In this document: positions 52,448 to 60,173 of the stretch, piece by piece
How positions within the stretch are numbered: the first letter of the stretch is position 1
Layout: every line of letters begins with the position of its first letter
DNA from: Cupriavidus taiwanensis
GTDB taxonomy: Bacteria > Pseudomonadota > Gammaproteobacteria > Burkholderiales > Burkholderiaceae
Reading direction: 5' to 3'
Length of the DNA stretch: 64,000 bases
NCBI RefSeq assembly: GCF_900249755.1
Contig: NZ_LT976853.1
Coordinates: forward strand, 2,329,274 to 2,393,273
The notes under the pieces: model-generated
What the model saw: only the letters and a program-made list of their open reading frames with translations
Databases searched by the model: none
Told to the model about the DNA's origin: nothing
Program-made: the position numbers and the translations under genes

Positions 52448-52924
52448 ATGAACCTGATCCTGTGGCGCCACGCCGAAGCCGAAGACCTTCCCGACGCGCT
52501 CAGCCTTAGCCGTACCGCCGACCTGCAGCGCCCGCTGACGCGCCGCGGCCGCAAGCAGGCCGAGGCCTCGGCCAGGTGGCTGCGCGCCCATCTGCCCGCC
52601 GATACCCGCGTGCTGTGCAGTCCCGCCGTGCGCGCGCGAGAAACCGCGGCTGCGCTGAGCGGCGAGCCGGAAATCCTGGATGCGCTGGCGCCGGGCGCCG
52701 ACGTCAGCGCCGTGCTCGCCGCCGTCGAGTGGCCGGAACGCGCCGAGCATGTGGTGGTAGTCGGCCACCAGCCGTGGATCGGCCGCGTCGCCAGCCTGCT
52801 GCTGGCGGGCACCGAAATGGACTGGAGCGTGCGCAAGGGCGGCGTCTGGTGGCTGACCGGCCGCACCCGCGAGAGCGAGGCCCAGACGGTGCTGCGCGCG
52901 GTTATCAATCCCGAATTTCTCTGA
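52448..52924 (+). CDS. sixA: phosphohistidine phosphatase SixA-like
   Basis: A 158-residue histidine phosphatase. The catalytic RHG-type motif is LILWRHAEAEDL (phospho-acceptor His8). The second Arg/His set is in VLCSPAVRARETAAAL and VVVVGHQPWIGRVASLLL. Length and lack of a signal peptide fit the small cytoplasmic SixA group, which removes phosphate from histidine-phosphotransfer proteins. It lies upstream of the OlsB-like gene on the same strand, but that gene has its own PhoB-type promoter. Confidence 0.9.
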   Translation: MNLILWRHAEAEDLPDALSLSRTADLQRPLTRRGRKQAEASARWLRAHLPADTRVLCSPAVRARETAAALSGEPEILDALAPGADVSAVLAAVEWPERAEHVVVVGHQPWIGRVASLLLAGTEMDWSVRKGGVWWLTGRTRESEAQTVLRAVINPEFL

Positions 52925-53089
52925 GCCTGTCCTCAAGCCCCCGCTCCGCCCGGCCGGCATGGGCCGGCTTCGGCAAAAATCAGAATTGCCTCATGGCAGG
53001 CGGAATCTCCCATCCCTAGAGTGCATTGGCGCCCTTTCCCGCGCCACTTGCAACTGTCCCGGAGATTCCATTGACCAACCCTGCCACCG

Positions 53090-53145
53090 CCGTCACGCAA
53101 CCGTCATCGCCGGGTCACGGCACTGTCACCGGCCCTCACTACATT
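53090..53145 (+). promoter_or_regulatory. PhoB-type promoter: four 11-bp half-site repeats plus -10
   Basis: Half-sites CCGTCAC, CCGTCAT, GGGTCAC and CTGTCAC begin at 53090, 53101, 53112 and 53123, exactly 11 bp apart. Each contains GTCA and fits the PhoB consensus CTGTCAT with 4-bp spacers. TACATT (53140-53145) follows the last half-site by 10 bp, the spacing of known PhoB-activated promoters that lack a -35. Confidence 0.75.
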
Positions 53146-53181
53146 GCATCGCAACAGTTTCGTCACCAAAAGGACATACTG

Positions 53182-54021
53182 ATGCGAGATCTGCCGACGC
53201 CTACCCAGCCGCTCTTCGACTCCCTGCCCAATGGCCTCGGCCAGACGGCGCGGAGGCGTCTTCATCGCCCATCGGATACACCGGCACATGAGTCGCCTGT
53301 TCTCAGCGTGGCGTGGGCGCGCCACCAGGATGAAGTAGTCGAGGCCCAGCGCCTGCGCTACAAGGTCTTTGCCGAGGAAATGGGCGCGCGCCTGACGTCT
53401 TCGGTGCCCGAACTCGACATCGACATGTTCGATGCCTACTGCGACCACCTGATCGTGCGAGACATGGCCACGCTGCGCGTGGTCGGCACCTACCGCGTGC
53501 TGCCGCCGCACCAGGCCAAGCGCCTGGGCTGCCTGTACGCCGAGTCGGAATTCGATCTGGTGCGGCTGTCGCACCTGCGCCCGAAGATGCTGGAACTGGG
53601 CCGCTCGTGCGTGCACCGCGACTACCGCTCCGGCAGCGTGATCATGGCGTTGTGGGGCGGGCTGGGCGAATACCTGCAGCGCTGGGGCATCGAGTCCATG
53701 CTGGGCTGCGCCAGCGTGCCGATGAGCGACGGCGGCCACTACGCGGCCAGCCTGCACCGGCTGTTCACCGAGCGTTCGCTGGCCCCCATCGAGTACCATG
53801 CGTTCCCGCGCCTGCCGTTGCCGGTGGAAGACCTGAACCAGCAACTGGCGGTCGAGCCGCCCGCGCTGATCAAGGGCTACCTGCGCCTGGGCGCGAAGAT
53901 CTGCGGCCAGCCGGCCTGGGACCCGGATTTCAACGTGGCGGACTTCCTCACGCTGCTGCGCGTGAACGACATGAACCCGCGCTACGCCCGCCACTTCCTG
54001 GGCCTGAACAACGCCGCATGA
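53182..54021 (+). CDS. olsB: OlsB-like GNAT N-acyltransferase (ornithine-lipid synthesis type)
   Basis: A 279-residue acyltransferase of the OlsB/Acetyltransf_5 family. The first step of ornithine-lipid synthesis N-acylates ornithine with 3-hydroxyacyl-ACP. Family features: VVEAQRLRYKVFAEEMGARL, then LDIDMFDAYCDHLIVRD, VVGTYRVLPPHQAKRLG, EFDLVRLSHLRPKMLELGRS, CVHRDYRSGSVIMALWGGLG and GCASVPMSDGG. ATG 53182 has AAGGA at good spacing and lies about 30 nt after the predicted PhoB-dependent start; a TTG further upstream falls before the PhoB sites and is rejected. No olsA-type O-acyltransferase is adjacent. Other N-acyl-amino-acid synthases share this fold, so the head group is inferred. Confidence 0.82.
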   Translation: MRDLPTPTQPLFDSLPNGLGQTARRRLHRPSDTPAHESPVLSVAWARHQDEVVEAQRLRYKVFAEEMGARLTSSVPELDIDMFDAYCDHLIVRDMATLRVVGTYRVLPPHQAKRLGCLYAESEFDLVRLSHLRPKMLELGRSCVHRDYRSGSVIMALWGGLGEYLQRWGIESMLGCASVPMSDGGHYAASLHRLFTERSLAPIEYHAFPRLPLPVEDLNQQLAVEPPALIKGYLRLGAKICGQPAWDPDFNVADFLTLLRVNDMNPRYARHFLGLNNAA

Positions 54022-54091: not shown

Positions 54092-55624
54092 TCAGTCGTA
54101 GACCACCTTGTAGCGCTTGCCGATGCGCTGCCATTCGTCGGCTTCCTGCACCAGGCTGTATTCGATCAGCGGATTGGCGTCGATCCACGCCTTCGGCAGG
54201 CGCACGGTAAAGCCTTCGTCCAGCGCCTCGGCCAGTTGCGTCACGCGAATGTCCGGCAGCGCGACATCCGAGCGGCGCCGGCACAGCACGAAGGCCAGCC
54301 GCAGGCTGAACAGCATGCGCCAGTCGACGAACTTGCCACTGCCCGACAGCTTGCCCAGCTTGCCCGCATGGCCCAGCAACAGCGTCGCCAGCCGCGCCTG
54401 GTCGGTCTTCGAAAAGCCCGGCATGTCGGCATGCGTGGCAATGTAGGCGGAATGCTTGTGATAGCCGCTGTGCGAAATCGACATGCCGATCTCATGCAGG
54501 CTGGCCGCCCAGCCCAGCAGCGCCAGATTGTCCTCGCGCCGTTCATTGGCCGGATCCGGGAACTGTGACAGCAGCGTCTGCGCGGTGCGGCGCACGCGGC
54601 TGGCCTGGGCGCGGTCGACGCCGTAGCGGCGCATGAACTGGTCCACCGTGACCGTGCGCATGTCCTCATGGTGGCTGCGTCCGAGCAGGTCGTACAGCAC
54701 GCCCAGCCGCAGCGCGCCGTCGGTCACGTCCATGCGCTCGATATCGAGTTCGGCGAACACGCCCAGCATGATCGACAGGCCGCCCGGGAGCACCGGGATG
54801 CGGTCCGGCTTGAGCCCGGTCAGCTTGACGCGGTTGGTGTTCTCCGCCTTGATCAGCGCACGCTTCAGGCGCTCCAGTCCTTCGCGCGTGATGCCGTGCT
54901 CGGCATTGCTGTCGTTCATGCCGTTGAGCTCGATCAGCTCGGCCAGCGCGCGCGCGGTGCCCGACGAGCCCACCGCCTGTTCCCAGCCCGCGGCGCGGTA
55001 CTGGCGCACCAGCACCTGGATCTCGCGGCGCGCCGCCAGTTCGGCCTGCTTCATCGCGTATTCGTCGACATTGCCGCTGGGGAAGAACTGGCGGCTGTGC
55101 GACACGCAACCGATATACAGGCTTTCCATCAGCCTGGACTGGTAGCCGTTGCCGATGATGAACTCGGTCGAGCCGCCGCCGATATCGACCACCAGGCGGT
55201 TGCCCTGGCAGGCCGGCGCATCGTGCGAGGCGCCCAGGTAGATCAGCCGCGCCTCCTCGCGCCCGGCGATCACTTCGATCGGGAAGCCCAGTGCGCTCTC
55301 GGCCTCGATCAGGAATTCAGAGGCGTTCTTGGCCACGCGCAGCGTGTTGGTGGCCACCGCGCGCACCTGGCCCGGCGCGAACTCGCGCAGGCGGTCGCCG
55401 AAGCGCCGCAGCGCATCGATGCCGCGCCGGCGCGCGGGCTGGTCCAGGTATTTATCGGGCGTCAGCCCGGCCGCCAGCCGCACCGGCTCGCGCAGCGCGT
55501 CCACCTGAAAGATCTGGCTGGCCGGGCCGTTGGCCGTCGGGGTTTCGTCCACCCGCCCGATCATCAGGCGGAAGCTGTTCGAGCCCATGTCGACGGCGGC
55601 CAGCAGGCGTGGAGTGTTGTTCAT
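54092..55624 (-). CDS. ppx: exopolyphosphatase
   Basis: A 510-residue Ppx/GppA-family phosphatase that removes terminal phosphate from polyphosphate. The ASKHA ATPase motifs are LLAAVDMGSNSFRLMIG at the N-terminus and RLVVDIGGGSTEFIIG around residue 140. The C-terminal HD-like region begins near RYGVDRAQASRVRRTAQ, with WAASLHEIGMSISHSGYHKH. The start ATG is at 55624; an extension to 55666 is not needed. It is divergent from ppk across 190 bp. The two opposing enzymes share a control region with PhoB-like half-sites. Confidence 0.94.
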   Translation of the reverse strand: MNNTPRLLAAVDMGSNSFRLMIGRVDETPTANGPASQIFQVDALREPVRLAAGLTPDKYLDQPARRRGIDALRRFGDRLREFAPGQVRAVATNTLRVAKNASEFLIEAESALGFPIEVIAGREEARLIYLGASHDAPACQGNRLVVDIGGGSTEFIIGNGYQSRLMESLYIGCVSHSRQFFPSGNVDEYAMKQAELAARREIQVLVRQYRAAGWEQAVGSSGTARALAELIELNGMNDSNAEHGITREGLERLKRALIKAENTNRVKLTGLKPDRIPVLPGGLSIMLGVFAELDIERMDVTDGALRLGVLYDLLGRSHHEDMRTVTVDQFMRRYGVDRAQASRVRRTAQTLLSQFPDPANERREDNLALLGWAASLHEIGMSISHSGYHKHSAYIATHADMPGFSKTDQARLATLLLGHAGKLGKLSGSGKFVDWRMLFSLRLAFVLCRRRSDVALPDIRVTQLAEALDEGFTVRLPKAWIDANPLIEYSLVQEADEWQRIGKRYKVVYD

Positions 55625-55739
55625 CGTGTGCTTGGAGGGCAGGTTCGCGTTGGCGTTGCGAAGCACGGCAGGGACACGCTGGTGGCCTGGCCTGCCGGCA
55701 TTCGGGCCCGGGAAAATTATGTCGTCGTCATGTCCGCAT

Positions 55740-55772
55740 CATGACAAAATCAAACTGTCATGAAAGTGACAC
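55740..55772. promoter_or_regulatory. cluster of PhoB-like half-sites between ppx and ppk
   Basis: CATGACA (55740-55746), CTGTCAT (55755-55761) and GTGACAC (55766-55772). The first two form a 7-bp perfect inverted repeat, CATGACA/TGTCATG with a 9-bp spacer. Orientation is mixed, so this is weaker evidence for PhoB than the array upstream of the OlsB-like gene. Confidence 0.4.
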
Positions 55773-55817
55773 GATTCTATGAAAAAGTCGCCACATTACC
55801 AAAAGAAGGTCATGACC

Positions 55818-57961: not shown

Positions 57962-59353
<1,392 letters not shown>

Positions 59354-59465: not shown

Positions 59466-60173
59466 TCAGGCGCCAGGGGTGCGCGCCAGCCGGTAGCCGC
59501 TGCCGCGCACGGTTTCGATCATGTTGCTGTACCCGCCGGGCGTGAGCGCGGCGCGCAGGCGCTTGATATGGACGTCGACGGTGCGCTCCTCGACAAAGAC
59601 ATGGTCGCCCCAGACCTGGTCGAGCAATTGCGACCGGCTGTGCACGCGCTCGGGGTGCGTCATCAGGAAGTGCAGCAGGCGGAACTCGGTCGGGCCCAGG
59701 TCCAGCTTGATCGGGCCGCTGTCGTCCTGGCCGGTGACGCGGTGCGTGGCAGGGTCCAGCCGCAGGCCGTTGATCGCGACCACGTCGTCGGTCAGCTGCG
59801 GCGCGCGGCGGCGCAGCACCGCCTTGATCCGCGCCAGCAGCTCCTTGGGCGAGAACGGCTTGGTGACGTAGTCGTCGGCACCGGCTTCCAGCCCCATCAC
59901 CTTGTCCTGCTCCTCGCCGCGGGCGGTCAGCATGATGATGGGAATCTGGCGGGTGCGGTCGTTGGCGCGCAACTCCTTGGCGAAGTTCGCGCCCGACTTG
60001 CCCGGGAGCATCCAGTCGAGCAGCACCAGGTCGGGCAGCACATCGCTCATCAGCGACAGCGCCTGCTCGGCGTTATAGGCCCGGATCGGATAATGCCCCG
60101 CGTGCTGCAGGTTCACGGCGATCAGCTCGGCGATCGCCGGTTCGTCTTCGACAACGAGAATACTGCTTGGCAT
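59466..60173 (-). CDS. phoB: phosphate response regulator PhoB
   Basis: A 235-residue OmpR-class regulator. The receiver domain carries the acidic pocket (LVVEDEPAIAEL), phospho-acceptor in DLVLLDWMLPGKSG, the switch Thr/Ser (IIMLTARGEEQDKV) and Lys in YVTKPFSPKELLAR. The C-terminal winged helix includes LGPTEFRLLHFLMTHPERVH and VEERTVDVHIKRLR, whose recognition helix binds CTGTCAT half-sites. Predicted targets in this window are the array upstream of the OlsB-like gene and possibly ppx/ppk. Confidence 0.97.
   Translation of the reverse strand: MPSSILVVEDEPAIAELIAVNLQHAGHYPIRAYNAEQALSLMSDVLPDLVLLDWMLPGKSGANFAKELRANDRTRQIPIIMLTARGEEQDKVMGLEAGADDYVTKPFSPKELLARIKAVLRRRAPQLTDDVVAINGLRLDPATHRVTGQDDSGPIKLDLGPTEFRLLHFLMTHPERVHSRSQLLDQVWGDHVFVEERTVDVHIKRLRAALTPGGYSNMIETVRGSGYRLARTPGA

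Follow-up and report, generated by a model that had tools for sequence, protein, structure and literature searches.

A strongly conserved putative PhoB-type promoter upstream of an OlsB-like acyltransferase gene in Cupriavidus

Introduction

PhoB-dependent promoters of Escherichia coli, such as those of pstS and phoA, carry head-to-tail CTGTCAT-N4 units that replace the -35 element, and have the -10 element at about 10 bp. The locus described here, from Cupriavidus taiwanensis, a member of a genus with biotechnology uses, shares with them the head-to-tail units and the distance of about 10 bp to the -10, whereas its units are rich in C and G at positions 1-2, with C as the usual last base.

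Pho boxes upstream of olsB have been predicted in 21 of 43 genomes of Burkholderia s.l. and, with a second matrix, in 43 of 43 (data not shown there; PMC7814305). In P. xenovorans LB400, according to the same paper and again as data not shown, ornithine lipid replaces phospholipid at low phosphate. That paper relied on an 18-bp matrix and names neither Cupriavidus nor Ralstonia in its main text. As far as that main text goes, the olsB genes of Burkholderia s.l. resemble the one described here in gene family, bacterial family and predicted upstream Pho box, and the difference lies in the description given here, for Cupriavidus, of a register of four units and of a -10 at a fixed distance of 10 bp. 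The olsB gene of A. baumannii has a predicted Pho box and is phosphate-responsive (PMC11828411). As that paper describes it, the likeness is in a Pho box before olsB and none before olsA, whereas in Acinetobacter, a gamma-proteobacterium, a two-unit consensus was used and expression was measured, and the Cupriavidus promoter is predicted from sequence. A literature search over titles and the openings of abstracts, with most subscription journals outside its coverage, returned no treatment of the Cupriavidus olsB Pho promoter.

Here, we analysed a stretch of 64,000 nucleotides of the C. taiwanensis genome (hereafter the window), in which positions 53090-53145 in all likelihood constitute a PhoB-dependent sigma-70 promoter of an OlsB-type N-acyltransferase gene, with ornithine lipid replacing phospholipid under phosphate shortage. 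Judged by its sequence, the strongly conserved PhoB-type promoter before the OlsB-like gene is real; the link between the two was already predicted in Burkholderia s.l.

Anatomy of the promoter region

The putative promoter and the gene downstream of it comprise the following elements:

53090..53096, + strand: Pho unit 1, CCGTCAC; TCA invariant in 35/35 Cupriavidus sequences, G in 34
53101..53107, + strand: Pho unit 2, CCGTCAT; GTCA invariant in 35/35 Cupriavidus sequences
53112..53118, + strand: Pho unit 3, GGGTCAC; the most variable unit, CA invariant in 35/35 Cupriavidus sequences
53123..53129, + strand: Pho unit 4, CTGTCAC; the promoter-proximal unit and the best conserved of the four, TGTCA invariant in 35/35 Cupriavidus sequences
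53140..53145, + strand: -10 hexamer TACATT, 10 bp past unit 4
53168..53174, + strand: Shine-Dalgarno region AAAAGGA, also visible in the alignment of relatives
53182..54021, + strand: olsB-like gene, 279 aa, GNAT domain PF13444

An earlier, sequence-only reading of this DNA had placed four GTCA heptamers 11 bp apart (starting at 53090, 53101, 53112 and 53123) and a TACATT hexamer starting 10 bp beyond the last of them; the former were recovered at exactly these coordinates and the latter at 53140-53145. Its description of three units departing from consensus at one or two positions needs correction, as all four differ from CTGTCAT, by 2, 1, 3 and 1 positions, respectively. Pho promoters in general lack a -35 element, and a search of 52950-53250 for a TTGACA-type -35 paired with a -10 found none. 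Scored as four units in 11-bp register, with C or T accepted at position 7 (maximum 28), the array reaches 24/28, and the runner-up among non-overlapping sites on either strand of the window scores 20 (at 55755).

The ATG at 53182 is preceded by the Shine-Dalgarno sequence and lies downstream of the array and TACATT. The longest open reading frame opens at TTG 53026 and would contain the array. In Cupriavidus relatives, however, the leader from TACATT to the ATG measures 34, 35, 36, 37, 38, 45 or 55 nt, lengths that are often not multiples of three apart; the leader is therefore non-coding and the longer frame from TTG 53026 is not the gene. Together with the N-terminus, which is conserved in relatives from ATG 53182, this led us to reject the TTG start and to regard the array as non-coding DNA. 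Two Cupriavidus loci (L027 and L031) have a longer TACATT-ATG leader in which AAAGGACAC is repeated; L027 additionally has its -10 stretch, CTACATTG, in duplicate.

The OlsB-like protein and its gene neighbourhood

The PF13444 domain of the protein was matched with 127.6 bits (cut-off 22.4), the only such match in the genome. Its top NCBIfam matches are two OlsB equivalogs, both below cut-off (NF052555, 168.8 of 320 bits; NF052554, 165.6 of 350), and on this sequence evidence we call the protein OlsB-like, below the NCBIfam equivalog cut-offs. It matches a protein of Cupriavidus sp. WGlv3 at 100% (a rounded figure, across 279 residues) and one of C. alkaliphilus at 99%; no relative with a solved structure was found by sequence. 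The OlsA models are the best match of a further protein, an OlsA candidate (131.1 of 300 bits, NF052553; two of the six PF01553 proteins of the genome were scanned with NCBIfam), encoded approximately 445 kb from the olsB-like gene; no Pho array was found before it (best score 14, shuffle fraction 0.83).

The genes flanking the promoter and the olsB-like gene are:

52448-52924: sixA-like gene, upstream of the array, below the TIGR00249 cut-off
54092..55666, - strand: ppx, exopolyphosphatase, 316.8 of 307 bits with TIGR03706
55779..57905, + strand: ppk1, polyphosphate kinase, true start possibly an ATG near 55812
57962..59353, - strand: phoR, over the TIGR02966 cut-off
59466..60173, - strand: phoB, over the TIGR02154 cut-off

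Beyond phoB, phoU and pst genes were recognised by eye, pstS among them being confirmed by profile score. The proximity of the olsB-like gene to phoB, already proposed from the sequence, is borne out by phoB (59466..60173) and phoR, both over their cut-offs and close by. The divergent ppx-ppk intergenic region (55719-55772) contains conserved Pho-like units facing both ways, CTGTCAT-N4-GTGACAC towards ppk and TTGTCAT-N4-CGGACAT-N4-ACGACAT towards ppx. The ppk-side GTCAT-N5-TGACA is present in 21/21 Cupriavidus sequences (20 other genomes and the source), and no -10 at 10 bp was seen by eye on that side.

Based on these data, it is unlikely, if conceivable, that the PhoB promoter is real and the enzyme acylates an amine other than ornithine, in the manner of GlsB, or serves some other function. 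The missed OlsB equivalog cut-offs would allow this, as would a weak match to the model of GlsB, a glycine acyltransferase (19.7 bits), but the OlsB model scores far higher (168.8 bits), the gene is the sole PF13444 gene of the genome, and among 24 loci from the family it adjoins sixA, upstream, in 23/24 and ppx, downstream, in 19/24. Furthermore, PMC7814305 states that the same-family OlsB Bcal1281 catalyses the first reaction in making ornithine lipid, and the C. taiwanensis protein is probably its orthologue.

Shared architecture at pstS and phoX

The architecture of the putative olsB promoter recurs in the same genome. Upstream of pstS, whose product is over two PstS cut-offs (530.5 bits, cut-off 339), we found TGTCACGGAATTGTCAT, followed 10 bp on by TACAGT (the hexamer assigned by eye). 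The region upstream of phoX, encoding a PhoX alkaline phosphatase (PF05787, 329.6 bits), has TGTCATCAAAGTGCCAT and then, by eye, TACATT 10 bp on. The genome pattern search that gave both sites returned 7 matches, against 0 for the reversed control; four of the seven are without a clear Pho gene (C1:770512, C1:3237728, C2:488781 and C5:16283) and may be due to chance. The olsB site is missing from the seven because two of its positions differ from the search pattern. GGAA, the spacer at pstS, is likewise the one most often seen between units 1 and 2 of the Cupriavidus olsB arrays. A second pair, TTGTCAA-N4-TTGTCAT, lies upstream of pstS (L060 8100-8165, minus strand), 3' of both the main Pho box and the -10-like hexamer that goes with it.

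Direct-repeat binding is common to OmpR-family regulators, and each unit at olsB has 1 to 3 mismatches to the E. coli Pho consensus; both facts would suit a different member of the family that binds 11-bp direct repeats, the gene then serving another signal. We regard this as very improbable, however, given the like units and 10-bp distance at pstS and phoX, typical Pho genes in the same genome, and given that the pstS spacer is the one commonest in the genus at olsB.

Excess over chance and conservation

In 60 order-1 Markov sequences of 64 kb, the maximum array score ranged from 18 to 21, versus 24 for the olsB array. A two-unit consensus search of the window gave 5 matches against 2.7 expected, a number equalled by 16 of 100 shuffles and hence not above chance. 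Two places in the 5.95-Mb genome have exact GTCA at four successive 11-bp steps, namely the olsB array and a short repeat of the GGTCAAA type on contig C2. If two mismatches are allowed, there are 10 genome matches versus 5 for the reversed control pattern, and such a loose search has little discriminating power. On contig C2, positions 364778-364836 (genome G000; L051, about 1501-1560) hold tandem 11-bp repeats with a GGTCA core, Pho-like in their GTCA register and different in their unit, perhaps another regulator's site or a simple repeat.

Within Cupriavidus, 35 of 36 genomes were compared (in G031, which was dropped, the match begins at the contig edge). A search without anchor, extending 200 bp from the ATG, gave best four-unit arrays scoring 21 to 24, with TACATT at exactly 10 bp in 35/35. 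Unit 3 reads GGGTCAC in 11 of the 35, GGTTCAC in 9, GCTTCAC in 6, GTGCCAC in 3 and otherwise in 6. Mean pairwise identity was 0.82 over the array and 0.95 over the GTCA cores, versus 0.30 and 0.32 in the two adjoining 40-bp segments on the upstream side, all in an ungapped register anchored on TACATT, whose own value of 1.0 arises by construction. Among the named loci from the close group, 40/40 likewise had TACATT at 10 bp, and 38 of these loci are titled Cupriavidus (L124, with no upstream DNA, is excluded, and the species overlap with those of the 35 genomes).

Outside the genus, the family set was derived from 63 matching genomes, of which 30 loci were obtained and 24 used after 6 from Cupriavidus had been set aside, the other 33 genomes lying outside the sample. 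With the period set to 11 bp, the mean best score in the 24 family loci was 19.25; six other periods gave 14.7-15.6, and the reverse strand gave 16.3. In 34 named non-Cupriavidus loci the corresponding values were 15.4, 12.0-12.9 and 12.4. A shuffle fraction of 0.05 or less was reached by 21/24 family and 27/34 named loci, and missed by 3/24 and 7/34. It should be noted that the compared genomes are related and not independent, 12 of the 34 named loci being from Ralstonia or near kin. In the family run of the period and shuffle tests the segment searched at L217 was misplaced; this locus does carry an array on second look. The array of L204 has three units, not four, and in the family locus L219 no array was seen.

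A hexamer of the form TAnnnT, a form picked after the sequences had been seen, was located exactly 10 bp after a three-unit array (threshold 14/21) in 21/24 family and 20/34 named loci. At other distances from 2 to 20 bp it occurred in 0/24 family loci and in at most 2/34 named loci each (five in all). With the threshold at 15 the 10-bp counts fell to 13/24 and 18/34, and at 16 to 7/24 and 14/34. The 10-bp TAnnnT test was failed by 14/34 named loci (including Sulfuritalea, Azonexus, Rhodocyclaceae, Roseateles, Rubrivivax, Zwartia and Planktotalea) and by 3/24 family loci. At the order level, 14 loci were read by eye without a control, two weak matches (G050 and G058) being left out; arrays were seen in several, and no array was found in L047 and L049 (best three-unit score 12). 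Conservation of the 11-bp register upstream of orthologues, named earlier as a check on the proposal, was thus observed in 35/35 Cupriavidus genomes, and 11 bp is the favoured period outside the genus as well.

That the array is a chance or neutral repeat is a negligible prospect: short degenerate repeats are common and the two-unit search alone is not above chance, but the score excess (24 vs 18 to 21), the genus-wide units, TACATT or TAnnnT at 10 bp and the conservation footprint speak against it, the footprint being the reason why we disfavour this explanation.

A second array upstream of a plcP-like cluster

The mismatch-tolerant pattern search also led to an array of TTCAT-GTCAT-GTCAC-GTCAC in 11-bp register (L053 1501-1537) before a gene for a calcineurin-like phosphoesterase, which is followed by genes for a GT4 glycosyltransferase and then a DgkA-family protein (cluster L170 1355-4188, minus strand). 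There were 39 matches among 40 genomes, of which 30 loci were used, the other 9 lying outside the sample; in 30/30 of these Cupriavidus loci the array scored 20 to 23 of 28, with a shuffle fraction of 0.0034 or less each. The mean was 21.4 at 11 bp versus 15.2-17.1 at other periods. The -10 of this array, read by eye as CTGAAT or a similar hexamer at a distance of 10 bp, is a poorer one. The two best NCBIfam matches of the glycosyltransferase are lipid glycosyltransferases, far below cut-off (86 of 480 and 55.7 of 400 bits), and the best match of the phosphoesterase is LpxH-like, also below cut-off.

A Pho box before a phospholipase-glycosyltransferase pair is likewise found with PlcP-Agt of P. 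aeruginosa (PMC8528852) and of marine bacteria (PMC4796936). Compared with these systems as described in the two papers, the Cupriavidus cluster differs in the addition of a third, DgkA-family gene, the likeness being one of layout. By analogy, the cluster may represent a PlcP-Agt-type pathway. As this second array precedes a PlcP-like/glycosyltransferase/DgkA cluster, PhoB may control two lipid-replacement routes. We tentatively suggest, as a possibility that we would not yet favour, that Cupriavidus PhoB runs through four-unit arrays a two-armed membrane renovation, with ornithine lipid synthesis (olsB) in one arm and phospholipid breakdown and glycolipid synthesis (plcP-agt-dgkA-like) in the other, in which the DgkA-family member would recycle diacylglycerol and the order of switching on would be set by the fixed 10-bp distance and differing unit quality.

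Proposed mechanism and significance

The promoter reading is based on its anatomy, its conservation, the architecture it has in common with the upstream regions of pstS and phoX, and the family to which the protein belongs; from these we infer PhoB binding, a phosphate response, the start site and the enzyme product. A PhoB array driving an OlsB-like acyltransferase, as first proposed, would best account for the unit, the 11-bp register, the 10-bp distance to the -10, the lack of a -35, the conservation, the sites at pstS and phoX, and the nearby phoB-phoR. As to the parallel that had been drawn with rhizobia, the host, Cupriavidus, is a beta-proteobacterium and not a classical alpha-proteobacterial rhizobium.

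In the PhoB-dependent scheme, PhoR would phosphorylate PhoB when phosphate is short, and PhoB dimers would occupy the four 11-bp repeats in head-to-tail arrangement, substituting for a -35 element and holding RNA polymerase at TACATT, 10 bp downstream. Transcripts would start a few bases past TACATT, giving a leader of approximately 30 nt to the ATG at 53182. The OlsB-type enzyme would then form lyso-ornithine lipid, the substrate from which an OlsA-type acyltransferase, its gene lying elsewhere, would make ornithine lipid, in place of phospholipid.

The predicted link between phosphate starvation and ornithine lipid would thus extend from Burkholderia s.l. to Cupriavidus and Ralstonia. The footprint is strong enough for a base-by-base definition of the promoter, and the resulting model of a beta-proteobacterial PhoB site (unit, register and 10-bp distance) may be used for listing Pho regulons. 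The analysis also provides a pointer to a second, glycolipid arm in Cupriavidus. The olsB locus itself would be an ordinary example of a known phosphate-saving strategy, a switch placed before a gene that probably makes a phosphorus-free membrane lipid.
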